A stretch of 64,000 nt of DNA from Ruminiclostridium sp. (lineage in GTDB: Bacteria > Bacillota > Clostridia > Oscillospirales > Ruminococcaceae): positions 36,901 to 100,900 of the forward strand of contig JAGBLA010000003.1 of the NCBI GenBank assembly GCA_017635675.1. The letters are read 5' to 3'. Shown here one piece after another: positions 48,769 through 64,000 of the stretch (position 1 is the stretch's first letter; every line of letters begins with the position of its first letter). Under the pieces are notes generated by a model, which searched no databases, was not told where the DNA came from, and saw only the letters and a program-made list of their open reading frames with translations. The position numbers and the translations under genes are program-made.

Positions 48769-49901
48769 CTGTATTCTTCCTTTACAGTCTCTATAAGCTC
48801 GTCCGCCGCGGCAGTCTTTACGGTAAGGCAATGCTTGTCCGAGAACATCACCGCAGCGATATTTGCGGAGCCCTTTACCTTTGCGTCGAGGTAATACCCC
48901 GCGCGGCAGGCGAGAACATCGAGGGTCTTCTGTGCCGCTCCCGCTTCTTCAAGTATATCCAGCGCCGCATCGACCGTGGCGCAGTCGGGCAGCCTTTGCA
49001 GAGCCTTAACATCGGCTCCCGCAAGAACTCCGCAGGTCACGAGAACGTCCATTCGTCCGTCAGCCTGCGCCGAATGGGTGTTCATTATCCCCGCACCGAG
49101 CTTCACAAGCTTTCCGATATGCCCGATGATAAGTATGCCTTTGAACCCGAGCTCAAGTGCTGAGTCGATAGCCTCGCCTATGAAGTTGCTGCACTTCACG
49201 CTTTTCTCCACGTCGAAGGGCATTTCCCGCGAGATATAGTTCTCACCGTAGTTTCCGAGGGTGAAGAACACATTTTCATGCCCCTCCGCCTTGCGCATAT
49301 TGAGCTCCGTGCGTATAGTATCTATCAGTGCCGCATTGCTCATGGGCTCGATGATGCCGCTTGTGCCGATCACCGAGATACCCCCCGCGATGCCGAGACG
49401 CGGATTGTAGGTATGCTTCGCGAGCTCCTCGCCGCCCGGAACGCTTATTGCCACGGTGAACCCGCCTGTATAGCCGTACTGCGCCGAGACCTCCGCGAGA
49501 GCGTCGGCTATCATTTTCCGCGGCACGGAGTTTATGGCGAACTCTCCGACAGGCTGGTCGAGCCCTGGCTTAGTTACCCTTCCGATGCCCTCGCCGCCGA
49601 TTATGGTCACGCCGCTCTCCGAAAAAGCGACCTTTGCGAAAACGAGGATACCGTTGGTGATATCCGGGTCATCACCGCTGTCCTTTTTTATCGCGCAGCC
49701 CGCAAAGCCGCTCCCCGTAAACGGTTCAAGCACATCAAGGGTGAGTGTTTTTCCTTTCGGGGTCACAAGCTCAACGCTTTCGGGAAAACTTCCCCGTAAT
49801 ATGCGTATTGCCGCAGCTTTTGATGCTGCGGCTGCGCATGAACCCGTGGTATAGCCGCAGCGGAGCATTTTTCCGCCGCGGTATATATACTCGCTGAACA
49901 T
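48765..49901 (-). CDS. cbiD: Cobalt-precorrin-5B C1-methyltransferase
   Basis: Methylates C1 of the ring in the anaerobic route. 378 aa, or 367 from the internal ATG at 49866-49868. Motifs: LRCGYTTGSCAAAASKAA, GRVTKPGLDQPVGEFAIN, VIGTSGIIEPMS and IIGHIGKLVKLGAGIMNTHS. The first ATG directly follows the cbiK stop and has no ribosome binding site, while the internal one has GGCGGAA nearby and fits the family's usual N-terminus, so the start is uncertain. Confidence 0.93.
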   Translation of the reverse strand: MFSEYIYRGGKMLRCGYTTGSCAAAASKAAAIRILRGSFPESVELVTPKGKTLTLDVLEPFTGSGFAGCAIKKDSGDDPDITNGILVFAKVAFSESGVTIIGGEGIGRVTKPGLDQPVGEFAINSVPRKMIADALAEVSAQYGYTGGFTVAISVPGGEELAKHTYNPRLGIAGGISVIGTSGIIEPMSNAALIDTIRTELNMRKAEGHENVFFTLGNYGENYISREMPFDVEKSVKCSNFIGEAIDSALELGFKGILIIGHIGKLVKLGAGIMNTHSAQADGRMDVLVTCGVLAGADVKALQRLPDCATVDAALDILEEAGAAQKTLDVLACRAGYYLDAKVKGSANIAAVMFSDKHCLTVKTAAADELIETVKEEYR

Positions 49902-51284
49902 TTATGAAATTGAATCGGATCTGAACGTGAGCTCACGGTCATACCATTCCGACTTCTTGGTGCTCCATGCGGCACAGTTTATGGGAGTATCCAGCGCCGC
50001 AACAGGAACGGTGTAAGTATAAGCACCCTCGGCATTCTCAACGAACGGAATGAACGCGCTTTCGTCGGCGGACGCGGCTTCCTCTGCCGTACCCATGAAG
50101 AGTTTGCCGTAGCCCGTGCCGCTCAGTGTCATTACAGCGGTCATTTCGCCGTTTGCAACGGTAAGCTTGCAGTCAACCACCTTGAACATAGATGAGCTCG
50201 AATCGACGGAAATGCTGTATTCGCCGTCTGTGAGCGAGGTCTGCGCGGCGGTGCCCGAAGTTTCCGAAGCTTCGAGGGGCTGTGCGTTCTTCACATGGTC
50301 AACGTAAAGTGCTCTTACGGCTTCTATCTCGCCGAGACCGCGGAGCAGCGGAACTACCTCAAAGCCTTCGTTTGTAAGTATAGTCTTCCAGGAGTCTTCC
50401 TCATCGCCTGCCATATCGTTGTTGGCGTGATCGCCCGCAACTACCATGAGCGGTTCAAGAACAACGCGCTTGTAACCGCCGTCCTTAGCGAATTTCACAA
50501 CATCGTCGATAGACGGTTCGGCTTCAACGGTGCCGATGCAGTAGTTCTTCTTGCCCGCGTCGGCAAGCATACTCTGGAGCTTCGCGTAGGCAGCGTTGGA
50601 ACTGTGTTCCGTGCCGTGACCCATGAAGACTATCGCGGTCTCGCCGTCGTCGTACTCCGATGTTGCCGCGGTTATCGCGCTGATAACATTTGTGTAGTCC
50701 TCGTCGGTTGTGAGCAGGGGAGAGCCGACCTTAACACTGTCAAACTTGTCGGCGTTCGCTCTTACGACCTCCATAAGGTCGTCATATTCATAACCGCTCA
50801 TAACGTGGGTGGGCTGGACGGTGAGGTCTTTTATGCCGTCGGCTTCGAGACGTGCGAATGCTTCGTCAACATTGTCGATAACGAGTCCGTCACGCTCTTT
50901 GAGCTTGTCGATGATTATCTGGCTGGTGAACGCACGGCGCACGTCATATTCGGGGTTGGCCTCCTGTACAGCTTCCTCTATTGCGCCTATGGTCTTGTCG
51001 CGGCTGTCGTTGTAGCTGGTGCCGAAGCTTACCATGAGTATCACGGGCTTGTCGGCAGATGTGTCGTCCTCAGCGGGGGCTTCGGTCTGTGCCGCTGTGG
51101 TGGTAGTAGTTTCCGCAGCTGCTGTCGTCTCTGCGGCTGTGGCGGCGGTCGCCGTCTGTTCCTCTGTTTTCTCTGTTGCTGCGGGAGCCGCAGTCGTGGT
51201 CGCGGGAGCATTTCCACAGCCCGCAAGTGCAAGAGCGCACATTGCAGTGCCTAATGCAGCTGCCGCTATTTTTCTCAGTTTCAT
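49902..51284 (-). CDS. cbiK: Exported lipoprotein sirohydrochlorin cobaltochelatase with a C-terminal accessory domain
   Basis: Inserts cobalt into sirohydrochlorin. 460 aa: lipoprotein signal (MKLRKIAAAALG... lipobox ALAGC at about residue 21), a Thr/Ala linker to about residue 80, the CbiK domain (about 85-345), and a ~110-residue C-terminal domain. Catalytic and metal His residues are visible in QPTHVMSGYEYDD, FMGHGTEHSSN and VAGDHANNDMAGDEEDSWK. The C-terminal domain (LTDGEYSISV... ELTFRSDSI) is related to the protein at 54198-54617. ATG 51282-51284 has TTGGAGG 7 bases upstream. Export puts this step outside the membrane while every later step is inside. It lies just after the ABC importer genes. 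Confidence 0.9.
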   Translation of the reverse strand: MKLRKIAAAALGTAMCALALAGCGNAPATTTAAPAATEKTEEQTATAATAAETTAAAETTTTTAAQTEAPAEDDTSADKPVILMVSFGTSYNDSRDKTIGAIEEAVQEANPEYDVRRAFTSQIIIDKLKERDGLVIDNVDEAFARLEADGIKDLTVQPTHVMSGYEYDDLMEVVRANADKFDSVKVGSPLLTTDEDYTNVISAITAATSEYDDGETAIVFMGHGTEHSSNAAYAKLQSMLADAGKKNYCIGTVEAEPSIDDVVKFAKDGGYKRVVLEPLMVVAGDHANNDMAGDEEDSWKTILTNEGFEVVPLLRGLGEIEAVRALYVDHVKNAQPLEASETSGTAAQTSLTDGEYSISVDSSSSMFKVVDCKLTVANGEMTAVMTLSGTGYGKLFMGTAEEAASADESAFIPFVENAEGAYTYTVPVAALDTPINCAAWSTKKSEWYDRELTFRSDSIS

Positions 51285-51333
51285 AGTATTACCTCCAAAA
51301 ATTATGTTTATATGCTGATCGGTGCGCACCGTT

Positions 51334-52077
51334 TCAACCGTGGTATTTTTCATAAAGCTCATCGGAGATGTCAAAATGCTCCGTGAGCGTCGTCCTGTCA
51401 AGCAGCTCAGAGGGCTTTCCGATGCCTGTGCAGCGTCCGTTTTTGAGCAGCAGGATTGTATCGGATATCTTCTCCGCAAGCTCGGTCTCATGCAGCGACA
51501 TCACGACAGCGATGTTCCTCTCGTGCCGCAGCTTGTCCAGCATTTCAAGGAACGTCAGCTTGTAGTGTATATCAAGGAATGATGTCGGCTCGTCGAGAAG
51601 CAGTATCCTCGGTTCGCGGCATACCGCTCTTGCGAGCATCACCCGCTGCTTCTGTCCGTCGCTTATCTCCGAGAAAAAGCACTCCGAGAGCTCCGTTGTG
51701 TCCGTGAGCCGCATAGCTTCGCTGACCGCCTTTTTGTCGGCGTCGCCGAGCAGACCGAATGTCCCCGTGTATGGGTATCTGCCGGTCTCTATAACATCGC
51801 GGCAGGTCATCATATCCGTTTTCGGGCGGTCGGTGAGCATAGCGGAGACGAGCTTTGCAAGCTCGCCGCGCCCCATATCGGATGTGCTGGCGCCGTCTAT
51901 CAGCATTTCGCCCGAAAGCGGCGGTATCTGCCCCGAAAGCGTTTTCAGCAGCGTTGATTTCCCCGAGCCGTTCTGCCCGATGAATGTCAAAATCTCGCCG
52001 CTGTTTACCGTGAACGAGATGTCATGAGCTATCGTCCGCCTGCCGTAGCCCGCGCATATATTTCTAACCTCTAACAT
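51334..52077 (-). CDS. ABC transporter ATP-binding protein (BtuD/FecE type)
   Basis: Energises uptake by the permease and binding protein encoded upstream. 247 aa: Walker A GQNGSGKST, signature SDGQKQRVMLARA (first residue Ser-Asp in place of LSGG), Walker B ILLLDEPTSFLD, H-loop MSLHET. Family members move ferric siderophores, haem or cobalamin. Position in a cobalamin-riboswitch operon favours a corrinoid, or possibly the product of the exported chelatase. It overlaps the permease gene by 14 bases. Confidence 0.92.
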   Translation of the reverse strand: MLEVRNICAGYGRRTIAHDISFTVNSGEILTFIGQNGSGKSTLLKTLSGQIPPLSGEMLIDGASTSDMGRGELAKLVSAMLTDRPKTDMMTCRDVIETGRYPYTGTFGLLGDADKKAVSEAMRLTDTTELSECFFSEISDGQKQRVMLARAVCREPRILLLDEPTSFLDIHYKLTFLEMLDKLRHERNIAVVMSLHETELAEKISDTILLLKNGRCTGIGKPSELLDRTTLTEHFDISDELYEKYHG

Positions 52078-53077
52078 TGTCCTTGTTCTTTCTGAGCATT
52101 ATCATCAGCACTACAGGCGCACCGAGCACCGATGTCACCGTGCTTATCCCGAGCTCCGACGGCGAGATGACGGTTCTTGCTATCATGTCGCTTATTATGC
52201 AGAAAACTCCGCCGCCGAGAAAGCAAGCGGGTATCATCACTATCGGTCTTGCCGTGCCGAACAGCATTTTCATAAGGAACGGCACCGCTATCCCCACGAA
52301 TGTCACCGGACCCGCAAAGGCTGCCACACAGCCCGAAAGCAGGCTCGAAAGCAGTATCATTGCAATGCGCACCGCCTTTATGTTCACGCCCATTTCCACG
52401 GCATAACTTTCCCCGAGCTGATATGCGCTTATGGGCTTCGACATGAAGAACACTGCCGTGAGTGCCGCAAATATTATCACAGCGCAGACGACGAGGGATT
52501 CCGCTTTAAAGCCGGAGAATGTTCCCACCGACCAGCCGCGAAGGTTCACGATGTCCGAGTCGTCAGCGAAATTCACTATGATGTCCGTTATCGCGGTGCA
52601 GATATAGCCTATCATGACGCCGCACACCACCAGCAGTGACATACTTCGTATCTTCGACGACATCAGCAGCACCGCCGACATTGCGAGCAGCGCGCCTATG
52701 AATGCCGCGAATGCCATGAACGCGGAGTTGAGCATTATAGCTCCCCTTGCCGCGAGGATAAGCGATATCGCCACGGTGAGCCGCGCTCCCGAGGATATCC
52801 CGAGTACGAAGGGTCCCGCTATCGGGTTATGGAAATATGTCTGGAGCATATACCCCGAAAGCGCGAGCGCTCCGCCCAGCACCGCTGCCGCAAGAGTCCG
52901 CGGCAGACGTATTTTCAGAAGTATCATCTCCGAGGTGTCATCGCCGCCCCCGCCGAAAACTATCCCGAACGCGTCGGCAGGGGATATGTCCGCGCTGCCC
53001 GCGCATACGCTCAGAACAATGAATGCCGCGGTCAGTGATATAAGCAGCGCGAATGAAAGAATTATCCGTTTTTTCAT
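52064..53077 (-). CDS. ABC transporter permease (BtuC/FecCD type)
   Basis: 337-aa membrane permease with about ten segments; FecCD-family motifs LRLPRTLAAAVLGGALALSG, NPIAGPFVLGISSGA, LRGWSVGTFSG and FVGIAVPF. It forms a channel dimer for the ATPase encoded next. Its start shares a base with the stop of the binding-protein gene. Substrate inferred as a corrinoid or related metal chelate from context. Confidence 0.93.
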   Translation of the reverse strand: MKKRIILSFALLISLTAAFIVLSVCAGSADISPADAFGIVFGGGGDDTSEMILLKIRLPRTLAAAVLGGALALSGYMLQTYFHNPIAGPFVLGISSGARLTVAISLILAARGAIMLNSAFMAFAAFIGALLAMSAVLLMSSKIRSMSLLVVCGVMIGYICTAITDIIVNFADDSDIVNLRGWSVGTFSGFKAESLVVCAVIIFAALTAVFFMSKPISAYQLGESYAVEMGVNIKAVRIAMILLSSLLSGCVAAFAGPVTFVGIAVPFLMKMLFGTARPIVMIPACFLGGGVFCIISDMIARTVISPSELGISTVTSVLGAPVVLMIMLRKNKDNVRG

Positions 53078-54201
53078 CAGCTTATCCTGTACAGATATGT
53101 GGTCTCGGCACCCGTGTCGGCGAATACCGTATGCAGATCGGTAAGTATATCACCTGTCTTCATAATGTCCTGATAAACGCTTCTGCCGGTACACCACACA
53201 TTGCCGTTTTTCACTGCGCGGAAGTCCTTCAGCAGTTCGTTCTTCGCCGTCAGCTCCGCAACGCTGTGTATCTCGCCAGAGATGTTGCAGTTGTAGATGA
53301 TGATGTCCGCGTCCTTCGCGTTCATACAAAACTGCTCGGGTTCGAGGGTCACGGAGGAAAGCGCGTTGTCGTCGCCTATGAAGTCGAACACATTCTTCCC
53401 GCCCGCAAGCTCTATCATTTTGGTGATATAGTCGCCCGCTTTGCGTGTAACTATCCTGCCTGAGGAGGTGATGTAGAAGAACACAGCCGTGCGCCCTGGC
53501 GGCTGAACGCTCTCAAGCTCGTCGAAGTGCGCCTTCTGTTCGTTGAAGAGCTTTTCGCCCAGCTCGGGAACTCCCGCTATCCGCGCATACACCTTTACCC
53601 ATTCACAGCGTCCGAGCGGGTGTGTCTCATAGCTCGAACGGTCAACGAACACAGGTATGCCGAGCTCTTCCAGCTTTTCGGAGACCTTCGGCACGTGCTC
53701 GGACATGGTGGATTGTATCGAAAGCCGACAGCCCTGCGACAGCAGCAGCTCATAGTCGGGCTCGCGGTATTTCCCCGCGTATATCATCTCTCCGCTTGTC
53801 ATTGCTTCGCGGGCGCTGTCTATGTACCAGTCGTTTTCGGCTATCGCGGAAAAGCGTATGTCGGAAACTCTGTCCATAGCGTCATAGAAGCACATTGCCG
53901 CGCTTGCCGCAAGATATATCATATCCGGCGAGCGGGGTATCACGGTGATACCTGCGGAAAGTCCCGCGGGCGCGCTGTCCGTGATAAGGTACGCCTTGCC
54001 GTCATTGGTGGTTATCATAGCGTCGCCGTTATCGTATTCGTAGATGTCAAAGCACTGTGCGTATGTGTTTTCGACCTTTACGGGAGCGCTGTATCCTGCG
54101 ATTACAGTCGGGTCTTCCGCGGTATTGGGAGTATTCCCGCAGCCGCAGAGGTTCGCGGACACGACTGTTATCATCAGGAATGCGATAAGCTTTTTTATCA
54201 T
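53077..54201 (-). CDS. ABC transporter substrate-binding lipoprotein (BtuF-like)
   Basis: 374 aa: lipoprotein signal with lipobox NLCGC (about residue 21), then a class III periplasmic-binding-protein fold with two lobes joined by a long helix. Recognisable family pieces are IQSTMSEHVPKVSEKLEELGIPVFV and LAGGKNVFDFIGDD. It catches the ligand outside the cell for the permease downstream. Cobalamin or another corrinoid is likely given the riboswitch; iron chelates are the alternative. Confidence 0.9.
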   Translation of the reverse strand: MIKKLIAFLMITVVSANLCGCGNTPNTAEDPTVIAGYSAPVKVENTYAQCFDIYEYDNGDAMITTNDGKAYLITDSAPAGLSAGITVIPRSPDMIYLAASAAMCFYDAMDRVSDIRFSAIAENDWYIDSAREAMTSGEMIYAGKYREPDYELLLSQGCRLSIQSTMSEHVPKVSEKLEELGIPVFVDRSSYETHPLGRCEWVKVYARIAGVPELGEKLFNEQKAHFDELESVQPPGRTAVFFYITSSGRIVTRKAGDYITKMIELAGGKNVFDFIGDDNALSSVTLEPEQFCMNAKDADIIIYNCNISGEIHSVAELTAKNELLKDFRAVKNGNVWCTGRSVYQDIMKTGDILTDLHTVFADTGAETTYLYRIS

Positions 54202-54930: not shown

Positions 54931-54959
54931 ATTATAGCGCATTGACTCCGTAATGTCAA
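54931..54959 (-). promoter_or_regulatory. Promoter of the 20-gene cobalamin operon
   Basis: Minus-strand TTGACA (54954-54959), 17-base spacer, TATAAT (54931-54936): a near-perfect vegetative promoter. The leader is about 305 bases. Bases 54960-55017 between the two divergent promoters show nothing else. Confidence 0.9.
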
Positions 54960-55017: not shown

Positions 55018-55046
55018 TTGACAAATCGGAAATGACAGGTTATAAT
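55018..55046 (+). promoter_or_regulatory. Promoter of the Ubl-E1-rhodanese gene
   Basis: TTGACA (55018-55023), 17-base spacer, TATAAT (55041-55046), 51 bases before the start codon. Confidence 0.88.
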
Positions 55047-55097: not shown

Positions 55098-56573
55098 ATG
55101 GCGGTTACTCTTATAGTTCCCACAACGCTTCGTATGTTCACGGAGCACAGGTCGGAGCTTACTCTGGACGGAAATACGGTGGGTGAAGTGATAGACGCTC
55201 TCGCAGACGAATACCCCGATACGAGAAAAGTGCTTTACGGTGAGGACGGACGGCTGAGAGAATTTATAAATGTGTTTGTCGGTGCGGACAATATCCGCGA
55301 CCTTAACGGCTATGATACCCCGGTAAAGGAGGGGGACGAGATAATGCTGATACCGGCGATAGCGGGCGGCAGCGGCGATACGGTGGACGATGTCCGTGAA
55401 AGCGTCCTCGGCGACAGGCTGGGCGAAAAGCTCACGAATGACGAGATAAAGCGCTATTCCCGTCACCTGCTGCTCAAAGAGATAGGCGTAAAGGGTCAGC
55501 GCCGTCTCAAAGCCGCGAAAGTCCTTATAGTCGGAATGGGCGGTCTCGGAGCTCCGCTCGTGCAGTATCTTGCGGCGGCAGGTGTCGGTACGCTCGGACT
55601 TATCGACTTTGACGAGGTGGAGGAAAGCAATCTCCAGCGGCAGGTGATACACGGCTCCCGCGATATAGGCAGACCAAAGGTCGCAAGCGCAAAAGACAGC
55701 ATTAAGCAGATAAACCCGCTTGTGAAGGTAGAGACATACAATATGCGGCTTACCGCGGAGAACGCCGTTGAGCTTATCTCACAGTACGATGTTGTTGCGG
55801 ACGCTTCGGACAACTATCAGACGCGGTATCTTGTGAATGACGCGTGCGTGCTGCTCGGAAAACCCGATGTTTTCGGCGCGATGTATCAGTTCGAGGGTCA
55901 GGCATCGGTGTATTACGCGAAGGAAGGTCCCTGCTATCGCTGCATGTACCCGGCGCCGCCGCCTGCGGGTCTTGTGCCGTCCTGCGCTATGGGCGGCGTC
56001 GTGGGAGTCCTGCCCGGTATGATCGGTACAGTACAGGCAAATGAAGTGATAAAGCTGATAGTCGGCGGCGGCAAACTGCTTACAGGGCGGCTCGTGATGT
56101 TCGACGCATGGCGTATGCGCTGGCGGGAGCTGAAAATACGCAAGGATCCCCGCTGCCCGATATGCGGTGAAACGCCGACGATAACCGAGCTTGAAGAGTA
56201 CGACTACGAGGACTTCTGCGGGATAAAGACCCGTGAGGCGGAGGACGAGACTGTTGAGGGCATAGAGCCGAAGGAGCTGAAACGCCGTATCGACGCGGGG
56301 GAGAAGATAACTGTCGTGGATGTCCGCGAGCCGCACGAGCGCGCTATTGCAAAATTCCCCGACGCGATCGTGATACCGATAGGTCAGCTTGCTCGCAGAC
56401 AGGACGAGCTTGACCCGAGTGCCGATACCGTGTTCGTCTGCAAGGAAGGCAAGCGCAGCATACTGGCGGTGCGCACTCTGCGTGAGGCGGGCTACAAGGG
56501 CGCGGCGTACAATCTCGCGGGCGGCACGAATGCCTGGTCTCGGGAGGTGGACAGCAGTTTCCCGCAGTATTGA
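55098..56573 (+). CDS. Fusion of ubiquitin-like sulfur carrier, E1-like activating enzyme and rhodanese (CysO/MoaD-MoeB-rhodanese)
   Basis: 491 aa. Residues 1-91 are a beta-grasp sulfur carrier ending in IPAIAGG (Gly90-Gly91), closest in style to mycobacterial CysO. Residues 112-345 are a MoeB/ThiF adenylyltransferase: GMGGLGAPL (146-154), Asp170/Asp172 in LIDFDEVEESNLQRQ, zinc Cys pairs 279/282 and 353/356, conserved Cys296 in VPSCAMGG. Residues 388-491 are a rhodanese with active Cys448 (VFVCKEGKRS). The enzyme should adenylate a GG tail and load it with sulfur as thiocarboxylate. Its own GG is internal, followed by SGDT, so it must be cut, act in cis, or serve a separate carrier. Directly upstream of the encapsulin pair; own promoter. 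Confidence 0.92.
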   Translation: MAVTLIVPTTLRMFTEHRSELTLDGNTVGEVIDALADEYPDTRKVLYGEDGRLREFINVFVGADNIRDLNGYDTPVKEGDEIMLIPAIAGGSGDTVDDVRESVLGDRLGEKLTNDEIKRYSRHLLLKEIGVKGQRRLKAAKVLIVGMGGLGAPLVQYLAAAGVGTLGLIDFDEVEESNLQRQVIHGSRDIGRPKVASAKDSIKQINPLVKVETYNMRLTAENAVELISQYDVVADASDNYQTRYLVNDACVLLGKPDVFGAMYQFEGQASVYYAKEGPCYRCMYPAPPPAGLVPSCAMGGVVGVLPGMIGTVQANEVIKLIVGGGKLLTGRLVMFDAWRMRWRELKIRKDPRCPICGETPTITELEEYDYEDFCGIKTREAEDETVEGIEPKELKRRIDAGEKITVVDVREPHERAIAKFPDAIVIPIGQLARRQDELDPSADTVFVCKEGKRSILAVRTLREAGYKGAAYNLAGGTNAWSREVDSSFPQY

Positions 56574-56592
56574 AATTTTATTATAAAAACTA

Positions 56593-56621
56593 TTGCATTT
56601 TCAAAACAAATGTGATATAAT
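56593..56621 (+). promoter_or_regulatory. Promoter of the encapsulin - cysteine desulfurase operon
   Basis: TTGCAT (56593-56598), 17-base spacer, TATAAT (56616-56621), followed by an imperfect inverted repeat GCATACT (56631-56637) / AGTATGT (56652-56658) in the leader that could be an operator. Confidence 0.75.
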
Positions 56622-56692
56622 ATCTCGTAAGCATACTAAATCTGTGGATAAAGTATGTTAAACAAACCTATCTTACAACAGGAGGCAGCAAA

Positions 56693-57649
56693 ATGGCAAC
56701 CAAAGAAGAAGAAAAGATCATAGCTCTCGGAGCGAATGCGGCATATAACCTTGCCGACATCAACAAGACCAAGCCCCAGTATGCGGCGCTTACCCCGAAG
56801 TATCTTACAAAGGTGCTGGAATTCAAGGGGCTCGACTCTGGCATCTACCGTGTGAACAAGGTCAAGGAGGGTGATACTCCCCTCGATGTGCTGTGCAGCT
56901 CGGAAAAGAAGTCCAATATTATCCCCCAGGGCTATGTGGAATACGAAGAAAAGCCCCGTGAGTACCGTCTCGCGAACATCTCAACCATAATCAACGTGCA
57001 TACCGCGATAGACGACGTTTACAGCTCGCCCTTCGACCAGGCGAAGGAGCAGCTCTCGCTGGCGATAGAGAGCCTTCGCGAGCGTCAGGAAAGTCAGCTT
57101 ATCAACAATGATGACTACGGTCTTCTGAAAAACATAGCCGACAGTCAGCGCATCCAGCCTGTTTCCGCAAGCGGCGCTCCCACGCCCGATGACCTTGACG
57201 AGCTTATTACAAAGGTTTGGAAAGACCCGTCGTTCTTCCTCGCTCACCCGCGCGCGATAGCGGCTTTCGAGCGTGAATGCACCAAGCGCGGCGTTCCTCC
57301 CATGACCGCCAATATTGCTGGAGGCACCTTCATTCTCTGGCGTGGGATACCGATAATCCCCACCAACAAGCTGCTCGTTGACGGCGTTAAGGAGCCCAAG
57401 GGCAAGGGCGGCAAGACAAATATCCTGCTTGTGCGCACAGGCGAAGCAAAGCGCGGCGTCATCGGACTTTATCAGCGTAACCTCAAGAATGAACAGGGGC
57501 GCGGTCTCGCGGTGCGCTTCAGAGGTATCGACGATAAGGGCGTGGCTTCCTATCTGCTTTCGCTTTACTGCTCGGCGGCAATCCTCGCGGACGACGCTAT
57601 AGCAGTCCTCGAAGACGTTGAAGTTGGTGAGTACTATGACTATGAATAA
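56693..57649 (+). CDS. Family 2A encapsulin shell protein
   Basis: 318-aa HK97-fold protein expected to self-assemble into a closed icosahedral shell. It matches the SrpI/family 2A encapsulins in its whole plan: N-terminal arm (ALGANAAYNLADINKTKPQY), ITPKYL-like TPKYLTKVLEFKGLDSGIYR, the spine-helix region (SPFDQAKEQLSLAIESLRER), the loop WKDPSFFLAHPRAIAAFERE, and the C-terminal strand AILADDAIAVLEDVEVG. A phage origin is unlikely because no portal, protease, terminase or tail gene is near. AGGAGG lies 8 bases before ATG 56693. The next gene overlaps by 14 bases and encodes the expected cargo enzyme, which strongly supports the call. Confidence 0.92.
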   Translation: MATKEEEKIIALGANAAYNLADINKTKPQYAALTPKYLTKVLEFKGLDSGIYRVNKVKEGDTPLDVLCSSEKKSNIIPQGYVEYEEKPREYRLANISTIINVHTAIDDVYSSPFDQAKEQLSLAIESLRERQESQLINNDDYGLLKNIADSQRIQPVSASGAPTPDDLDELITKVWKDPSFFLAHPRAIAAFERECTKRGVPPMTANIAGGTFILWRGIPIIPTNKLLVDGVKEPKGKGGKTNILLVRTGEAKRGVIGLYQRNLKNEQGRGLAVRFRGIDDKGVASYLLSLYCSAAILADDAIAVLEDVEVGEYYDYE

Positions 57650-59216
57650 TTGGGGCATACCGGGCGAAGCCGAGCTCGAACAGCTCGCAAACTCGCTGTT
57701 CCCCGACTTTGACCCTCAGCGCTGTGCCGACGGCATCGAAAAGCTTGCGGCGACAGGGGATACCTCGGTCATATATGAAGCTGCCGCAAAGGCGGAAAGC
57801 CTGTTCGGCGGTGGGTACTGCACGGAGTATGAAGCGCTCGCCGAAGAGCTTATGAACGGAGCGGCTGCCGAAACAGCTCAGCCCGCCCCCGTTCAGCAGA
57901 ACGGTTACTCACCCGCAGTCCTGTCGGAGTCTCAGGCGGCAAGCTATATCCCGAAAGCAGCCGCACAGACGGCAGCACCCGTGTCCCGGAGCAATAATGT
58001 CATAGTCGGCACCAAAACTCTGGAACAGATACGCTCAGACTTCCCGATATTGAAGGAGGTCATCAACGGGCACCCGCTGGTGTGGCTGGACAACGGCGCT
58101 ACGACACAGCGTCCGCAGGCTGTCATCGACAGGCTTTCCTACTACTATGCGCACGAAAACTCCAACGTTCACCGCGGTGCTCACGAGCTCGCGGCACGCT
58201 CCACCGACGCGTACGAGCGCGCACGGCAGATAACCGCGGACTTCATCGGCGCGCCCTCAAAGGACAATATAGTGTTCGTGCGCGGCACCACAGAGGGTAT
58301 AAACCTTGTGGCGAACGCGTATGTGAAGCCGCTGCTGAAGCCAGGTGACGAGATAATACTCACGATACTCGAGCATCACGCGAACATCGTTCCGTGGCAG
58401 CTTGTGGCGGAGGAGACGGGAGCGGTGCTCAAGGTCGTACCGTGCGACGAGAGCGGTCAGCTCATACTTTCCGAGTACGAAAAGCTCTTCACCCGCCGCA
58501 CGAAATTTGTCAGCGCGGCGCACGTTTCCAACGTTCTCGGCACAGTGACGCCGGTGGCGGAGCTTATCGCGATCGCTCACGCACACGGAGTGCCGGTATT
58601 GATAGACGGAGCGCAGTCCGTGGCGCATATCCCGGTGAACGTGACAGCTCTCGACGCGGATTTCTTCGTGTTCTCGGGTCATAAGATATTCGCCCCCACG
58701 GGTATCGGCGCGCTTTACGGAAAAAGCGAGCTTCTCGAAGCCGCAAGACCCTATCACGGCGGCGGCAACATGATAAAGGACGTGACTTTTGAGCGCACGA
58801 TATACAATCCCGCGCCGAAAAAATTCGAGGCGGGAACGGGCAGCATTGCCGACGCGGTAGGCCTCGGAGCGGCGCTCGAATATCTGAACGCTGTCGGAAT
58901 GCCCGCGGTGAACAAGCATGAGCATGACCTGCTTGTTTACGGAATGAGCGAGCTTCGGAAGATAAACGGACTGCACCTTATCGGCACGGCATCCGACAAG
59001 GCGAGCGTGCTTTCGTTCGTGCTTGACGGTCACAGCAACGAGGAGGTCGGCGCGCGGCTCAACGAGCTCGGCATTGCAGTCCGCACAGGTCATCACTGCG
59101 CACAGCCGGTTCTTCGCCGCTTCGGGCTTGAAGGTACGGTTCGTCCGACGCTTGCGCTGTACAATTCGTTTGAGGACATCGACGCGCTTGTAAAGGGCAT
59201 AAGGACACTTTCATAA
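57636..59216 (+). CDS. Cysteine desulfurase with N-terminal cargo-loading extension (encapsulin cargo)
   Basis: Converts L-cysteine to L-alanine, leaving a persulfide. 526 aa against about 405 for SufS. Residues 1-125 are an extension: a helical, acidic part (LEQLANSLFPDFDPQ; YEALAEELMNGAAAE) and an Ala/Gln/Pro-rich disordered part (80-122), as in the cargo-targeting domains of family 2A desulfurases. The SufS-type domain follows, with PLP Lys350 in FSGHKIFAP and persulfide Cys488 in GHHCAQP. Start at ATG 57636 or 57642, both inside the end of the encapsulin gene after GGTGAG, so synthesis of shell and cargo is coupled. It is one of two desulfurase genes in the cluster. Confidence 0.93.
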   Translation: MTMNNWGIPGEAELEQLANSLFPDFDPQRCADGIEKLAATGDTSVIYEAAAKAESLFGGGYCTEYEALAEELMNGAAAETAQPAPVQQNGYSPAVLSESQAASYIPKAAAQTAAPVSRSNNVIVGTKTLEQIRSDFPILKEVINGHPLVWLDNGATTQRPQAVIDRLSYYYAHENSNVHRGAHELAARSTDAYERARQITADFIGAPSKDNIVFVRGTTEGINLVANAYVKPLLKPGDEIILTILEHHANIVPWQLVAEETGAVLKVVPCDESGQLILSEYEKLFTRRTKFVSAAHVSNVLGTVTPVAELIAIAHAHGVPVLIDGAQSVAHIPVNVTALDADFFVFSGHKIFAPTGIGALYGKSELLEAARPYHGGGNMIKDVTFERTIYNPAPKKFEAGTGSIADAVGLGAALEYLNAVGMPAVNKHEHDLLVYGMSELRKINGLHLIGTASDKASVLSFVLDGHSNEEVGARLNELGIAVRTGHHCAQPVLRRFGLEGTVRPTLALYNSFEDIDALVKGIRTLS

Positions 59217-59227
59217 GAACTGCGATA

Positions 59228-59252
59228 TTCCCCGCCTTGTGCGGGGAAATTT
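59228..59252 (+). terminator. Hairpin between the desulfurase cargo gene and sufC
   Basis: Perfect 8-bp stem TTCCCCGC (59228-59235) with GCGGGGAA (59241-59248), loop of 5, followed by only ATTT. It may end part of the transcripts or mark an RNA-processing site. No promoter is seen before sufC, so the suf genes probably depend on read-through. Confidence 0.55.
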
Positions 59253-59282
59253 GCTGAAAATATACGAAAACGGGAGATAACA

Positions 59283-60035
59283 ATGTCTGAATTACTGAAA
59301 ATTACGGGTCTGCACGTTTCTGCAGAGGACAAGGAGATACTGCACGGCGCTGACCTTTCTATAAATGCGGGAGAGACCCATGTTATAATGGGTCCGAACG
59401 GCGCGGGAAAATCCACACTCGGCTCAGCGATAATGGGAAGCCCCGAGTACACCGTCACCGGCGGGAGCATCGTATTCGACGGCGCTGACATCACCGGTGA
59501 AACGCCGGATAAGCGTGCGGCGCGCGGTATTTTCCTGTCGTTCCAGAATCCGGTGGAGATACCGGGTATAACGCTTTCCTCATTCCTGCGCAGCGCGTAT
59601 GAGCAGGTCACGGGACAGCGGGTGAAGCTGTTCGAGTTCAAAAAGCTGCTCAAGGCTTCAATGGAGGTGCTGCAGATGGACGCGGCTTACGCGGACAGGG
59701 AGCTTAACGTCGGATTTTCCGGCGGTGAGAAGAAGAAAGCCGAAATACTGCAGCTTCTCGTCCTGCGTCCGAAGCTCGCCATTCTCGACGAGACCGACAG
59801 CGGGCTGGATGTTGACGCGGTAAAGACCGTTTCGGCGGGAATCAGGGCGTACAGGGAGCAGACCGGCGGGTCGCTGCTTGTGATAACACACAACACAAAG
59901 ATACTTGAAGCTCTGACAGTCGATAGGACACACATAATAGCCGACGGACGGATAGCCGCCGAGGGCGGTGCGGAGCTTATAGCCGAAGTCACAGCCAACG
60001 GTTTTGAGAACTTTGTTTCGGGGAGTGCGCTATGA
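59283..60035 (+). CDS. sufC: Iron-sulfur assembly ATPase SufC
   Basis: ABC-type ATPase of the SufBCD scaffold, which builds iron-sulfur clusters in the cytoplasm. 250 aa, normal length: Walker A GPNGAGKSTLGSAIMG, Q-loop FLSFQNPVEIPG, signature NVGFSGGEKKKAEILQ, Walker B LAILDETDSGLD, H-loop ITHNTK. CGGGAG lies 7 bases before the ATG. First gene of sufCBDSU. Confidence 0.97.
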   Translation: MSELLKITGLHVSAEDKEILHGADLSINAGETHVIMGPNGAGKSTLGSAIMGSPEYTVTGGSIVFDGADITGETPDKRAARGIFLSFQNPVEIPGITLSSFLRSAYEQVTGQRVKLFEFKKLLKASMEVLQMDAAYADRELNVGFSGGEKKKAEILQLLVLRPKLAILDETDSGLDVDAVKTVSAGIRAYREQTGGSLLVITHNTKILEALTVDRTHIIADGRIAAEGGAELIAEVTANGFENFVSGSAL

Positions 60036-61441
60036 AAGAGAAAACACAGGTAGCGGACGTTGACCGCGCGTTCTATGATTTCCGCTATGACGAGGACGAG
60101 AGCAGTTTCTTTGACAGCGGCATAGCTCCCGATATTATCCGTGAGATATCCGCCGAAAAGGGCGACCCCGAGTGGATGACGCAGTTCAGACTGCACTCTC
60201 TGGAGGTTTACGGCAGGCTGAAAATGCCGGAGTGGGGACCCGACATAAGCGGGCTCGATATGGACAACATCGTGTCATATATACGTCCGCAGAAACGTAT
60301 GCAGAGCGACTGGAAAGATGTCCCCGACGATATCAGGGAGACCTTTGAAAAGCTCGGAATACCGCAGGCGGAACGAGAGAGTCTTGCGGGAGTGGGCGCA
60401 CAGTATGACAGCGAACTCGTGTATCACAATGTGCGCCGCGAGGTGGCGGAGTCGGGAGTGGTCTATACCGACCTGGAAAGCGCCATGCATGACGAGCGTT
60501 ACGCGGATATGATACGTTCGCACTTCATGAAGCTCGTCCCGCCCACAGACCATAAATTTGCGGCGCTGCACGGGGCGGTATGGTCGGGCGGCTCGTTCGT
60601 GTATGTTCCTGCGGGAGTGCGGCTTGAGATACCGCTCCAGTCGTATTTCAGGCTGAATGCCCGCGGCGCGGGTCAGTTTGAGCACACGCTGATAATAGTC
60701 GAGGAGAACGCGTATCTGCATTTCATCGAGGGCTGCTCGGCGCCGAAGTATTACGAGGCGGGGCTTCACGCGGGGTGCGTGGAGCTTTACGTCGGGAAGA
60801 ACGCGACGCTCCGCTATTCGACGATAGAGAACTGGTCGAAGAATATGTACAATCTGAACACCAAGCGCGCTTCCGTCGCGGAGGGCGGCAAGGTGGAGTG
60901 GGTGTCGGGATCCTTCGGGTCGCACGTTTCCTACCTCTATCCGATGTCGGTACTCAACGGGCGCGGCGCCCGTGCGGAGTTCACCGGGATCACTTTCGCG
61001 GGTGAGGGACAGGATCTTGACACCGGGGCGAAGATAGTGCATAACGCGCCGGAAACCTCGTCATTCATCAACACCCGCTCGATCTCCAAAAGCGGCGGAA
61101 AGAGCACTTTCCGCAGTTCGGTGGTTGTGAACGAAAACACAGGCGGCAGCAAATCGGCGGTTTCCTGCGAGTCTCTTATGCTCGACAGCATATCCCGCTC
61201 GGACACTATCCCCGCGATAGTGACAAAGACCGACAAGGTCGATGTGGGACATGAAGCGCGTATAGGGCGCATAAGCGACGAGGCAGTGTTCTATCTTATG
61301 TCCCGCGGACTTGACGAAAACAGCGCAAAAGCGCTGATAGTCAGCGGTTTCGCGGAGAATGTCTCTAAGGAGCTGCCGCTTGAATATGCCGCCGAGATGA
61401 ACAATCTTATAAATATCGAAATGAAGGGGAGTATAGGATAA
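60032..61441 (+). CDS. sufB: Iron-sulfur assembly scaffold SufB
   Basis: Core subunit of the SufBCD complex on which clusters are formed. 469 aa, normal length, with the right-handed beta-helix core and family landmarks GGSFVYVPAGVRLEIPLQSY, FEHTLIIVEENAYLHFIEGC and VGHEARIGRISDEAVFYLMS. The Cys in IEGCSAP corresponds to the sulfur-accepting region. ATGA overlap with sufC. Confidence 0.97.
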   Translation: MKEKTQVADVDRAFYDFRYDEDESSFFDSGIAPDIIREISAEKGDPEWMTQFRLHSLEVYGRLKMPEWGPDISGLDMDNIVSYIRPQKRMQSDWKDVPDDIRETFEKLGIPQAERESLAGVGAQYDSELVYHNVRREVAESGVVYTDLESAMHDERYADMIRSHFMKLVPPTDHKFAALHGAVWSGGSFVYVPAGVRLEIPLQSYFRLNARGAGQFEHTLIIVEENAYLHFIEGCSAPKYYEAGLHAGCVELYVGKNATLRYSTIENWSKNMYNLNTKRASVAEGGKVEWVSGSFGSHVSYLYPMSVLNGRGARAEFTGITFAGEGQDLDTGAKIVHNAPETSSFINTRSISKSGGKSTFRSSVVVNENTGGSKSAVSCESLMLDSISRSDTIPAIVTKTDKVDVGHEARIGRISDEAVFYLMSRGLDENSAKALIVSGFAENVSKELPLEYAAEMNNLINIEMKGSIG

Positions 61442-61442
61442 T

Positions 61443-62237
61443 ATGGAAAAACTGAACATTCTCCCCGCGCCGACATTCGCGCATCTCGGCGTGAATTACG
61501 CAGAGCGCGCGGAGACCGCTCCCGAAAAGAAAACACTGACAGTTTCGGAAAACACGCAGCAGCAGGTGGTTCAGTTCATTTCGTCTGACAGCGGGACGAC
61601 CGTCACTGTCGGAGAAAACGCTTCGCTTAAGCTTGTGCAGGTGTTCACAGGCGAGTGCGTGTCAAAGCTCTCCGCCGTAGTCTCCGATAATGCGCGGTTC
61701 GGGCTGATACAGCTCTATACCTGCGGCGGCGTCAGCGAGACCGTAACAGAGCTTCGCGGTCACAGAGCCGAGTTCGGGGCGGATATAGGCTATGACCTCG
61801 GCACAGGCTGCTCGCTCGATGTGAACCTTATAGCACAGCACTGCGGACGAAAGACAGTGTCTGATATAAATGTGAGCGGAGTCCTGCGCGGTGACGCGAA
61901 AAAGACGTTCAAGGGTACAATAGATCTCAGGCGCGGTGCCTCGGGCTCAAAGGGCAGCGAAAAGGAAGATGTTATCCTTATGGACGCGCGGGTGGTGAAC
62001 CGTACGGTACCCGTGATACTCTGCGACGAGGAAGACGTTGAGGGAAGCCACGGTGCGACGATAGGACGCATTGACGAGGAGCACGTGTTCTATATGCGTT
62101 CACGGGGGATCCCTGAGGAAAAGATATATGAGCTTGTCACACGTTCAAGGCTTGTGCGTCTTATCCGCATGATAGGTGACGAGCAGGCTGAAAAGCGTAT
62201 ATACGATATGCTCGGGTGGGGTGATGAAGTTGAGTGA
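61443..62237 (+). CDS. sufD: Iron-sulfur assembly protein SufD (short form)
   Basis: Partner of SufB in the SufBCD complex. 264 aa, much shorter than the usual 400 or more: the N-terminal helical domain is missing, leaving the beta-helix core (VVQFISSDSGTTVTVGENAS; ELRGHRAEFGADIGY; IAQHCGRKTVSDINV) and the C-terminal helices (GATIGRIDEEHVFYMRSRG). The His in QHCGRKT sits where SufD's functional His is expected. Short SufD proteins are common in Clostridia. Starts 2 bases after sufB. Confidence 0.92.
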   Translation: MEKLNILPAPTFAHLGVNYAERAETAPEKKTLTVSENTQQQVVQFISSDSGTTVTVGENASLKLVQVFTGECVSKLSAVVSDNARFGLIQLYTCGGVSETVTELRGHRAEFGADIGYDLGTGCSLDVNLIAQHCGRKTVSDINVSGVLRGDAKKTFKGTIDLRRGASGSKGSEKEDVILMDARVVNRTVPVILCDEEDVEGSHGATIGRIDEEHVFYMRSRGIPEEKIYELVTRSRLVRLIRMIGDEQAEKRIYDMLGWGDEVE

Positions 62238-63450
62238 GCGTAATTATAAAGCCGATTTCCCGGTGTTTGAAAAATACCCGGAGCTCGTTTACCTCGACAA
62301 CTCCGCCACCACGCAAAAGCCCGGGGCAGTTATGGAAGCGGTGGAACGGTATTACCGCGAGGAGAACGCCAACCCGCTCCGTGGGCTTTATGAGCTTGCG
62401 GTAAAGGCTACCGACGCTTACGAGAACGCGCGTATAGCCGTGCGGGACTTTGTAGGCGCACGGAGCGAGCGGGAGATAGTGTTCACCCGCAATGCGACCG
62501 AGAGCCTGAACCTGATAGCCTACAGCTACGGGCAGGATAATATCCGCAGCGGCGATGAGATACTCGTGACTATCTCCGAGCATCACAGCAACTTTCTGCC
62601 GTGGCAGATACTTGCGAAGAAGACAGGCGCGCAGCTGCGGTTCCTTAAATGTGACGAGCGCGGCGAATACACGCCCGAAGCGCTGAAAAAGGCGCTCACG
62701 CCGCGCACGCGGATATTTGCCTGTGCGCAGATCTCAAACGTGTTCGGGCGGCTCAACCCGATACACGATTTCGCGGAGATATGCCATAAAAACGGTACGC
62801 TTATCGTATGCGACGGCGCACAGAGCGTCCCGCATATCCCTGTGGACGTGGGGAAGCTCGGCGTGGATTTCCTCGCGTTTTCCGGGCATAAAATGCTTGC
62901 GCCTATGGGGATAGGCGTGCTTTACGGACGTGAGGAGCTGCTCGAAAAAATGCCGCCCTTCCTGTACGGCGGTGAAATGATCGAGTATGTGTCGCTTTGC
63001 GGTGCGACATTTGCGGAGCTCCCGCACAAGTTTGAGGCAGGCACGGTGAATGCCGGGGGAGCTGTGGGGCTGCGCGCGGCTGTCGGGTACATCGGCGCTG
63101 TCGGCTTTGATGAGATCGAACGCAGAGAAAACGCACTGACTGCAAAGCTTATGAACGCTGTGCGTGAGGTACCGCATGTGACCGTCGTGGGCTCCGACGA
63201 CCCCGCCGACCACTACGGGATCGTGACATTCACCATAGACGGCGTTCACCCGCACGATGTCGCTGCGATATTTGACGAGTCGGGTATCGCGGTGCGCGCG
63301 GGACATCACTGCGCACAGCCGCTGCACAAATACCTCAATCTTCAGTCCACCGTCCGCGCGAGCGCCGCGTTCTACAATGACGAGCGGGATATTGAGCGGT
63401 TCACGGAATGTCTGAAAACGATACGAAGGAGAATGGGTCACAGTGAGTAA
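62224..63450 (+). CDS. sufS: Cysteine desulfurase SufS
   Basis: PLP enzyme supplying persulfide sulfur to SufU. 408 aa, usual length, without the extension seen in the paralogue at 57636. PLP Lys in FSGHKMLAPMGIG; persulfide Cys in AGHHCAQPLHKYL. ATG 62224 lies inside the end of sufD (14-base overlap) with GGTGGGGTG upstream; frames reaching 62176 are not coding. Having both this and the encapsulated enzyme argues that the two serve different sulfur pools. Confidence 0.95.
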   Translation: MKLSERNYKADFPVFEKYPELVYLDNSATTQKPGAVMEAVERYYREENANPLRGLYELAVKATDAYENARIAVRDFVGARSEREIVFTRNATESLNLIAYSYGQDNIRSGDEILVTISEHHSNFLPWQILAKKTGAQLRFLKCDERGEYTPEALKKALTPRTRIFACAQISNVFGRLNPIHDFAEICHKNGTLIVCDGAQSVPHIPVDVGKLGVDFLAFSGHKMLAPMGIGVLYGREELLEKMPPFLYGGEMIEYVSLCGATFAELPHKFEAGTVNAGGAVGLRAAVGYIGAVGFDEIERRENALTAKLMNAVREVPHVTVVGSDDPADHYGIVTFTIDGVHPHDVAAIFDESGIAVRAGHHCAQPLHKYLNLQSTVRASAAFYNDERDIERFTECLKTIRRRMGHSE

Positions 63451-63886
63451 TTTTTACAATGAGATACTGACAGATCACAATCTGCACCCGATGCATAAGC
63501 ACGGGCTTGCAGGCTGCACCTGTTCGCTGGACGGAGTAAATCCGTCATGCGGCGACGAGATAACGCTTAATCTCAGCATAGAGGGCGAAGTTATCACGGA
63601 CGGCTCGTTTACAGGAAGCGGCTGCGCTGTTTCGCAGGCGTCGGCGGACATCATGCTTGATCTTGTCATCGGTAAAAGTGTGGACGAGGCAATACGGCTG
63701 CACGGGCTTTTCGTGAAGATGATACGCGGCGAGGCGGAGGAGCATGAGCTGGAGGAGCTTGAAGAAGCGGGTGCGCTGGCTGATATATCTCACATGCCTG
63801 CGCGGGTGAAGTGTGCGATGCTCGGCTGGCGGACCATGAATGAGATGATAAACGGTATAAAGGGAACCTCTAAAAACCCAATTTGA
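63443..63886 (+). CDS. sufU: SufU-type sulfur acceptor / scaffold protein
   Basis: Zinc-dependent protein that takes the persulfide from SufS. 147 aa with the three conserved Cys and the Asp: NPSCGDEITL, GSGCAVSQASADIM and ARVKCAMLGW. GTG start at 63443 overlaps the sufS stop, with GAAGGAG about 12 bases upstream. The last residues (GTSKNPI) and the stop codon are encoded inside the left end of a palindromic repeat, so the original C-terminus has probably been replaced. Last gene of the suf operon in view. Confidence 0.94.
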   Translation: MSNFYNEILTDHNLHPMHKHGLAGCTCSLDGVNPSCGDEITLNLSIEGEVITDGSFTGSGCAVSQASADIMLDLVIGKSVDEAIRLHGLFVKMIRGEAEEHELEELEEAGALADISHMPARVKCAMLGWRTMNEMINGIKGTSKNPI

Positions 63887-64000
63887 GAGAAAAAGAGCTA
63901 GCCACGCCGTCTACTGCGTCAAACCTCCTAACCGGGCGCCAGCCCGGCTTCGTCGGCTTTCCTTGTATCCGACGCAGCTATCTCATTTTCTCTTTTCAAA
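63862..64000 (+). repeat. MITE-like palindromic repeat, cut by the right edge
   Basis: Begins with GGGAACCTCTAAAAA, which looks like a terminal inverted repeat. Inside, AGAGAAAAAGAGCTAGC near 63887-63902 is mirrored by GCAGCTATCTCATTTTCTCT near 63974-63993; CTGCGTC (63914-63920) pairs with GACGCAG (63971-63977); and CCGGGC-GCCA-GCCCGG forms a central hairpin (63932-63947). It has no coding capacity. The whole unit would fold into one long imperfect hairpin, typical of non-autonomous mobile repeats. The matching right end is probably just outside the window. Confidence 0.65.

Follow-up and report, generated by a model that had tools for sequence, protein, structure and literature searches.

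For the cargo of a family 2A encapsulin a loading motif has been published, LARLANEFFS (PMC8049743), and the main text of a survey names serine O-acetyltransferases and rhodaneses as the most enriched accessories of such shells; the taker of their sulfur is not settled, that text just proposing a co-regulated rhodanese (PMC8346489). For the CysO pathway of Mycobacterium, the sulfur source was called unknown in 2011 (PMC3227635), and in the main text of Iyer, Burroughs and Aravind (2006, PMC1779556) operon class 4c holds a ubiquitin-like carrier (Ubl), an E1–rhodanese, a JAB peptidase and a cysteine synthase, and class 4e a Ubl, a JAB, an E1 without rhodanese, SirA and an O-acetylhomoserine sulfhydrylase. 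Here we describe a locus at the end of a 64,000-nucleotide stretch of Ruminiclostridium sp. DNA (assembly GCA_017635675.1, contig JAGBLA010000003.1, positions 36,901 to 100,900; hereafter the window), where a ThiS–ThiF–rhodanese (Ubl–E1–rhodanese) fusion, called UEr below, is encoded together with a family 2A shell and a cargo-like cysteine desulfurase. As one operon joins shell sulfur release and CysO-type use, both questions reduce to one protein pair, and the operon, with its shell and fused carrier, suggests how stored sulfur returns to use.

Our reading, to which we give a probability of roughly 0.55, is that the desulfurase is encapsulated and that the same operon returns the sulfur it releases to amino acids via a protein-thiocarboxylate route. 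The three core genes stand among eight plus-strand genes (UEr, shell, desulfurase and sufCBDSU) that fill the last 9 kb of the window:

55098 to 56573, plus strand: UEr, 491 residues, with Pfam ThiS (7–91), ThiF (120–354) and Rhodanese (391–482) domains
56693 to 57649, plus strand: family 2A encapsulin shell gene, 318 residues, with Pfam, NCBIfam and solved-structure matches
57636 to 59216, plus strand: SufS-like cysteine desulfurase, cargo-like, 526 residues from the ATG at 57636, with a class-V aminotransferase domain (149–518)

This UEr–encapsulin–desulfurase core is not peculiar to the window genome and is not due to chance. A shell search of one-per-species genomes returned 281 relatives, of which only the best 80 loci, ranked by likeness to the window shell, were kept, so the counts given here describe this clade and not all family 2A systems; open reading frames in the loci were called by a simple script, not a gene finder. 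A UEr gene precedes the shell gene in 79 of the 80 loci, and the contig of the eightieth starts about 170 bases before its shell gene. Under fixed rules, and among loci with enough sequence, UEr is directly upstream of the shell in 75/75 and the desulfurase directly downstream in 76/76; the linkage that a preliminary description of the window had proposed to trace, by tabulating shell-gene neighbours in related genomes, is thus present. Carriers of the core span four phyla, with many records naming rumen or other gut samples, and include Ruminococcus flavefaciens, Fibrobacter and Butyrivibrio.

The shell protein scores 467.2 bits against the NCBIfam encap_f2a model (cut-off 380) and 307.7 bits against Pfam SrpI-like, which is its sole Pfam match; the cyclic-nucleotide (cNMP)-binding domain that separates 2B from 2A is not among its matches, and its 361.1 bits against the family 2B model fall under that model's cut-off of 400. 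It aligns nearly full length with the solved SrpI/MMP-I shells (8t6r, 359.7 bits over residues 4–317; 6x8m, 351.6 bits over residues 10–317). An AlphaFold model, built with 27 alignment rows, reached a mean predicted local distance difference test (pLDDT) score of just 31. Even without a structure model, the sequence evidence is strong that the window shell is a family 2A encapsulin, as had been claimed for this 318-residue protein.

The N-terminal extension of the desulfurase, some 125 residues long, contains ELEQLANSLFPD, which is close to LARLANEFFS; of two patterns devised for this analysis, the strict one fits 59/79 relatives and the loose one 66/79. SGHK and HHCAQP, which we take to be the sites of the pyridoxal phosphate lysine and the catalytic cysteine, are both present in the window and are kept in 78/79 and 77/79 loci, respectively. 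Packaging of the desulfurase in the shell is likely from its sequence, and the earlier view of this long enzyme as cargo-like is upheld. Its gene overlaps the shell gene by 14 bases.

Two further shell loci are described for their own sake (L denotes loci and G genomes). In L103 (8268–11867), a diverged shell (66%) is paired with a desulfurase whose N-terminus is very short and adjoins open reading frames that resemble, by eye, a membrane transporter pair; none of the probed thiocarboxylate genes matched near it. In L172 (11860–13717), from Fibrobacterota, the shell gene lies directly 3′ of a cysteine synthase, and no desulfurase matched in the next 4 kb.

UEr consists of a CysO-like Ubl (residues 1–91, ending PAIAGG), a linker, a MoeB-type E1 (about 112–375), a second linker and a rhodanese (391–482) whose Cys448 sits in CKEGKRS. 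Residues 1–91 match 4n6e_B and 3dwg_C end to end, both of which stop at Gly-Gly; their records are named ‘ThiS/MoaD family protein’ and ‘9.5 kDa culture filtrate antigen cfp10A’, and we take 3dwg_C to be mycobacterial CysO and 4n6e_B to be a CysO-type carrier. Escherichia coli MoaD matches far more weakly (E 1.3). By these comparisons the first domain most resembles CysO-type carriers, and the proposed identity of the three-domain gene as a CysO–MoeZ-type fusion is upheld. The AlphaFold model of UEr (mean pLDDT 84, predicted template modelling score 0.72) finds its best structural matches in Uba4 and MoeB, with confidence below 50 at residues 94–97, 295–298 and 378–383, the first and last of which are linkers. 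Cys296 of the E1 and Cys448 of the rhodanese, presumably the catalytic cysteines, occur in 78/78 and 79/79 rows of relatives.

Since the Ubl is fused to the E1, in all 77 rows that cover that part, a free Ubl C-terminus requires a cut. Gly90-Gly91 is kept in 77/77 rows and Pro86 in 76/77, and the dozen or so positions past Gly91 are variable, with insertions and gaps; this pattern, a conserved Gly-Gly trailed by a loose linker, is expected if a peptidase frees the Ubl, and UEr would then be cut after Gly91. JAMM enzymes are said, from work on QbsE and HcyS, to trim such carrier tails.

Candidate peptidases and sulfur acceptors are found around the core in two gene sets, set C ([CysM]–JAMM–UEr–shell–desulfurase–CysE) and set M (MetY–TusA–(thioredoxin)–ThiS–E1–JAMM–(thioredoxin reductase)). 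A type C JAMM lies within 1.5 kb upstream of UEr in 40/66 loci, a cysteine synthase within 2.5 kb upstream in 14/64, and CysE within 1.5 kb downstream of the desulfurase gene in 34/65. Where coverage extends to both sides of the core (40 loci), CysE occurs in 33, any JAMM in 38, MetY in 26, TusA in 29, ThiS with a type M JAMM in 27 and SUF in 2. The deep-branching L104 has the order CysM–JAMM–UEr–shell–desulfurase, and the type C JAMM of L010 has 2kcq as its nearest solved structure and 2kks as its second. Names of neighbours were checked on single representatives: the Prok-JAB, EpsC (serine O-acetyltransferase), thiS, TusA, ThiG and Rrf2 matches are over curated cut-offs, whereas for the CysM, MetY, desampylase and cysE models the best hits stay under theirs; CysD is named after a Pfam PAPS_reduct match and CysN after a GTP-binding match alone. 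Further neighbours are presumed to be AprA, AprB, MetK, MetE, LysR and transporters. The JAMM, CysE, CysM and MetY neighbours, together with the CysO-like Ubl, lend contextual support to the early guess that the thiocarboxylate serves cysteine synthesis.

Individual members of these sets vary in ways that we record separately. The UEr-adjacent JAMM of Treponema loci L037, L056 and L061 reads HSHVNF or HSHADF where HSHP is expected, and the activity of these copies may differ. The stand-alone ThiS-like Ubl of L102 (9618–9827, minus strand) ends GGGAV and may need trimming before activation. In Selenomonas L029 (1–8349), ThiG and a radical-SAM BATS-domain protein, which we take to be ThiH-like, precede ThiS–E1–JAMM, before the operon, and the related L030 has a small sulfite-reductase-type protein; this region may connect the sulfur carriers of thiazole with those of amino acids.

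From these parts a route can be drawn in five steps. The desulfurase, loaded by its N-terminal LxxLANxxF-type motif, would take sulfur off cysteine within the shell; family 2A particles reportedly store elemental sulfur, according to a 2024 paper. The sulfane sulfur, as a persulfide or as stored sulfur re-reduced by thiols, would pass to Cys448 of the UEr rhodanese, and the JAMM peptidase would cleave UEr past Gly90-Gly91, giving the CysO-like domain a free C-terminus. The E1 would then adenylate the terminal glycine, which rhodanese sulfur would convert to a thiocarboxylate; finally, the sulfur would go to a cysteine synthase, acting on O-acetylserine made by CysE (or to MetY, acting on O-acetylhomoserine), and the JAMM would free the amino acid. 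The parts, their linkage, the conserved active-site residues, the likeness to CysO and the existence of encapsulin-free relatives support this route at the level of sequence. Packaging, the hand-over of sulfur from shell to UEr and thiocarboxylate formation we infer, and the end product would be cysteine for most lineages, with homocysteine a possibility in that of the window.

Several observations weigh against a route of this kind. The desulfurase scores 781.1 bits against NCBIfam f2_encap_cargo1, 19 under the cut-off of 800, and for this reason we call it cargo-like and do not file it as a member of that family; a simple pattern for the second published cargo motif, AASPYYFLDG, matched 0/79 desulfurases, and a fragment holding that motif was insufficient for cargo loading (PMC8049743). 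No type C JAMM stands beside UEr in 26/66 loci and no cysteine synthase upstream of it in 50/64, neither CysM nor a type C JAMM is beside UEr in the window's own lineage (for the JAMM, L002–L007), and 3/41 UEr-type JAMM copies miss the motif pattern devised here. In three Fibrobacterota genomes the UEr and shell genes are not adjacent, and in one of these (G1113) they lie about 9 to 10 kb apart on the same stretch. Moreover, pairing a cysteine-consuming desulfurase with a cysteine-making pathway seems circular, unless storage puts time between consumption and synthesis. For the window organism, the cysteine reading is weakened most by its genome, a bin 85% complete with 7% contamination, which yielded no cysteine synthase at E 1e-20, where the same search found one in 10/12 genomes; the one JAMM of this genome, moreover, is in a linked cassette and of the homocysteine-cassette subtype. 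Incompleteness of the bin, or use of MetY, could explain the missing synthase.

How closely UEr follows the shell was followed in wider samples of genomes. In 197 genomes of the window's family, the shell occurs in six and full-length UEr in five, all five shared and adjacent; in the sixth shell genome, G105, where the shell is 66–67% identical and the desulfurase has a short N-terminus, these neighbours are missing. Among 120 Fibrobacterota, a shell match occurs in 37 (over cut-off in 36), of which 33 have UEr (31 full length, 2 partial), and in the other 83 a search at E 1e-80 gave no UEr match but E1-only matches and a broken partial in the shell-free G1007 (residues 31–379, with an internal stop), which was not counted as UEr. 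The shell occurs in 17 of 398 Pseudomonadota, where the UEr check covered the 1.5 kb shell flanks and found UEr only in Succinivibrionaceae G600, the search centre. Among 398 Bacillota, seven have the shell family and two a full-length UEr (68–100% identity), both with the shell; nine shell-free genomes have Ubl–E1 matches, some also with rhodanese, at 43–51% identity, which rules out the idea that UEr is exclusive to encapsulin genomes.

These distributions bear on what we regard as the strongest competing explanation, unlikely though it seems to us, in which sulfur is never handed from shell to UEr. Here the shell and desulfurase would be a cysteine sink or store, UEr, JAMM and cysteine synthase would use sulfide, thiosulfate or TusA, and the operon would be shared because both arms answer to the cell's sulfur state. 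Shell–desulfurase pairs without UEr in their flanks, as in L103 and in 16/17 shell-positive Pseudomonadota (1.5 kb flanks), are consistent with such independence, as are UEr-type fusions in genomes with no shell match and the presence nearby of TusA, thioredoxin and, in some loci, sulfite reductase. However, the UEr–shell–desulfurase order is constant in all 75 testable loci, and the UEr–shell association is almost exclusive in two samples of genomes, which speaks for the return of shell sulfur through UEr.

The shell-free relatives show UEr-type genes in a context of their own. Six of the nine genomes were fetched (G258, G297 and G386, which share their genus with G211, one of the six, were left out), giving, with three Fibrobacterota UEr loci, ten stretches, seven of them from shell-free Bacillota. 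In L166–L169 a Ubl–E1–rhodanese fusion has a cysteine synthase and a JAMM alongside, and in L170 the fusion has a JAMM with no cysteine synthase match, the rhodanese being Pfam-confirmed in L166, L168, L169 and L170; four of the five fetched shell-free fusions thus have cysteine-synthesis surroundings like those of class 4c. L171 has a Ubl–E1 form with TusA, cysteine synthase and JAMM, and L175 an unfused Ubl ending PAMAGGC, a separate E1–rhodanese and a weak cysteine-synthase-like match (21%).

In a shell tree of 131 rows, presence of UEr as a label needs two changes, against a mean of 23.7 when labels are shuffled; the label for its absence on L163–L165 (Fibrobacterota) means not within 1.5 kb, UEr being elsewhere in those genomes, and the labels of L137–L162, L104, L105 and L041, whose contig starts at the shell gene, were set by hand. 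Fibrobacter and Treponema rows fall inside a Lachnospiraceae-rich set of 46 rows (support 96). In the UEr tree, Fibrobacter rows lie among Lachnospiraceae (supports 89–94), Selenomonas lies with other Bacillota (support 85) and Treponema is separate from Fibrobacter. Both trees are quick searches with many weak inner branches; because of these placements, the evidence points to movement of the UEr–shell–desulfurase block between phyla. More tentatively, one may picture a sulfur bank, in which the shell desulfurase would deposit cysteine sulfur and UEr, JAMM, CysM and CysE would withdraw it, UEr being a self-activating carrier freed by proteolysis and perhaps docking to the shell; such a bank might have arisen in Bacillota by addition of the shell pair to a fused CysO–MoeZ operon and then crossed gut phyla, a scenario that we consider possible without favouring it.

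Beyond the core, the window carries the following features, the genes among which, like those of the core, lie in the order and on the strand given in the preliminary description:

55018 to 55046, plus strand: sigma-70-like promoter match TTGACA-17-TATAAT, 12/12 consensus positions, 51 bases 5′ of the UEr start codon
59217 to 59282, plus strand: 66-base gap between desulfurase and sufC, with a strong hairpin (8-pair GC-rich stem)
59283 to 60035, plus strand: sufC, over the NCBIfam cut-off, a lineage-specific neighbour
60032 to 61441, plus strand: sufB, over the NCBIfam cut-off
61443 to 62237, plus strand: sufD-like, under the sufD model's cut-off (141.4 against 222 bits)
62221 to 63450, plus strand: sufS, over cut-off, an ordinary SUF desulfurase without N-terminal extension
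63443 to 63886, plus strand: sufU, over the NCBIfam cut-off
63881 to 64000, no strand: contig end, 120 bases identical to the end of contig C214

The window's last 120 bases are the reversed end of C214, a contig of the same genome that carries Rrf2, MetY, TusA, thioredoxin, a ThiS-like Ubl, an unfused E1 and a JAMM peptidase. In the relatives L002, L003 and L005, as far as the loci reach, sufU is followed by this cassette too, and their contigs encode a JAMM close to where the loci end. On the strength of this identity and of the cassette's place in these relatives, the two contigs very likely adjoin each other, and the locus very likely continues with the Rrf2–MetY–TusA–thioredoxin–ThiS–E1–JAMM genes of C214; CysE of this genome is on a third contig. 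The extent of 55098 to 63886 given earlier is therefore right for the genes and too narrow at its right edge, where the window stops with the contig.

Another reading is that the purpose is homocysteine or methionine, with UEr or the linked ThiS–E1–JAMM–MetY cassette making homocysteine from cysteine sulfur in place of transsulfuration. MetY is found in 26/40 and ThiS with a type M JAMM in 27/40 of the fully covered loci, the cassette is tied to the window locus by the contig-end overlap, and the search of the window genome gave no cysteine synthase. Against this, UEr's own Ubl is CysO-like, four of the five fetched shell-free fusion loci carry a cysteine synthase, with MetY unmatched there by the probe used, and the cassette brings a Ubl and an E1 of its own, which would make UEr redundant for homocysteine; we judge this purpose improbable as an account of the system.

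A role of UEr in cofactor synthesis (molybdopterin or thiazole) or transfer RNA (tRNA) thiolation is very improbable: its E1 is homologous to MoeB/ThiF, ThiG lies near L029 (Pfam-checked) with a ThiG cluster in 3/80 loci, and the Ubl of the set M cassette is over the thiS model's cut-off, but that cluster is near just these 3/80 loci, the UEr Ubl is nearest to CysO-type carriers, and MoaE was found in 0/16 genomes, against 11/14 control genomes, which rejects molybdopterin and contradicts the suggestion of cofactor synthesis in that sense.

Equally little is to be said for Fe–S assembly, with shell sulfur going to SufU/SufB: sufCBDSU begins 66 bases downstream of the core in the window, and SUF follows the desulfurase in L002–L005, but these are just 4/60 loci with at least 4.5 kb downstream, all among the window's nearest relatives, SUF owns a SufS, and a strong hairpin lies in the gap before sufC. 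The ‘direct linkage to SUF’ noted at the outset is thus real in the window, while SUF as part of a conserved system is rejected. In the close relative L006, a MetY cassette comes after the desulfurase, without SUF.

Folding of 59214–59282 gives the hairpin −19.1 kcal/mol (z −2.89, with 2/200 shuffles equally good); it is absent from the terminator-like sites of the window scan. Sigma-70-like sites are consensus matches and by themselves no evidence of function. A second perfect match, at 54959–54931 on the opposite strand, faces the minus-strand genes. The scan scored no plus-strand promoter-like site between UEr and shell, where a TATAAT is present, from which a second transcription start in that gap may arise. 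In related loci, sites with at least 10/12 positions occur within 300 bases before UEr in 29/72 and in the UEr–shell gap in 3/72, counts made over unequal lengths and with no shuffle control. A conserved RNA regulator was sought with Rfam and rejected, with no match in the window and tRNAs only in 5/80 loci. Beside the sulfur operon, the minus strand (42999–54201) carries anaerobic cobalamin genes (42999–51491; CbiK, CbiD, CbiG, tetrapyrrole methylases, CobB/CobQ-like) and a FecCD-type uptake set (51334–54201).

If the return of shell sulfur through UEr is true, a storage compartment gains a genetically encoded withdrawal route, in well-known gut fibre degraders. In the open-licence literature, without supplements, we found no paper joining encapsulin and protein-thiocarboxylate systems, which is weak evidence of absence. 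The MetY–TusA–thioredoxin–ThiS–E1–JAMM cassette has parts that we take to match the HcyS/HcyF/HcyD/MetZ thiocarboxylate methionine pathway of Wolinella; unlike that pathway, the cassette here neighbours a shell system, and its Ubl ends GGGAV, so that trimming would be needed here too. In main text, with supplements outside the search, the survey of family 2A loci has no ThiF, sulfur carrier, MoeB, JAB, thiocarboxylate, Ruminococcus or Fibrobacter (PMC8346489) and the SrpI/CyD paper no ThiF, MoeB or rhodanese (PMC8049743); the main text on operon classes makes no mention of encapsulin, SrpI or desulfurase (PMC1779556).

Set beside the main texts of these sources, the locus is like SrpI/CyD of Synechococcus elongatus in its family 2A shell and adjacent SufS-like desulfurase with long N-terminus and LARLANEFFS-like motif; unlike that system, its rhodanese is the C-terminal domain of a Ubl–E1–rhodanese fusion, JAMM, CysM and MetY-type genes are in the neighbourhood, and the second cargo motif is absent (PMC8049743). 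With the surveyed family 2A loci its clade shares CysE as a neighbour (PMC8346489). Sets C and M correspond to classes 4c and 4e, often side by side, except that the Ubl of the 4c-like module is fused to the E1–rhodanese (PMC1779556). The CysO–MoeZ–CysM–Mec+ system of Mycobacterium offers the same GG-ending CysO-like Ubl and E1–rhodanese, and a JAMM and CysM-like synthase of the kind that stands beside UEr in part of the related loci (PMC3227635). In that system, however, the Ubl and E1–rhodanese are not one protein, as they are here, where a free C-terminus requires a cut; the acyl donor there is O-phosphoserine and here, judging from the CysE neighbours, probably O-acetylserine; and to the mycobacterial scheme this locus adds a shell-borne desulfurase (PMC3227635).

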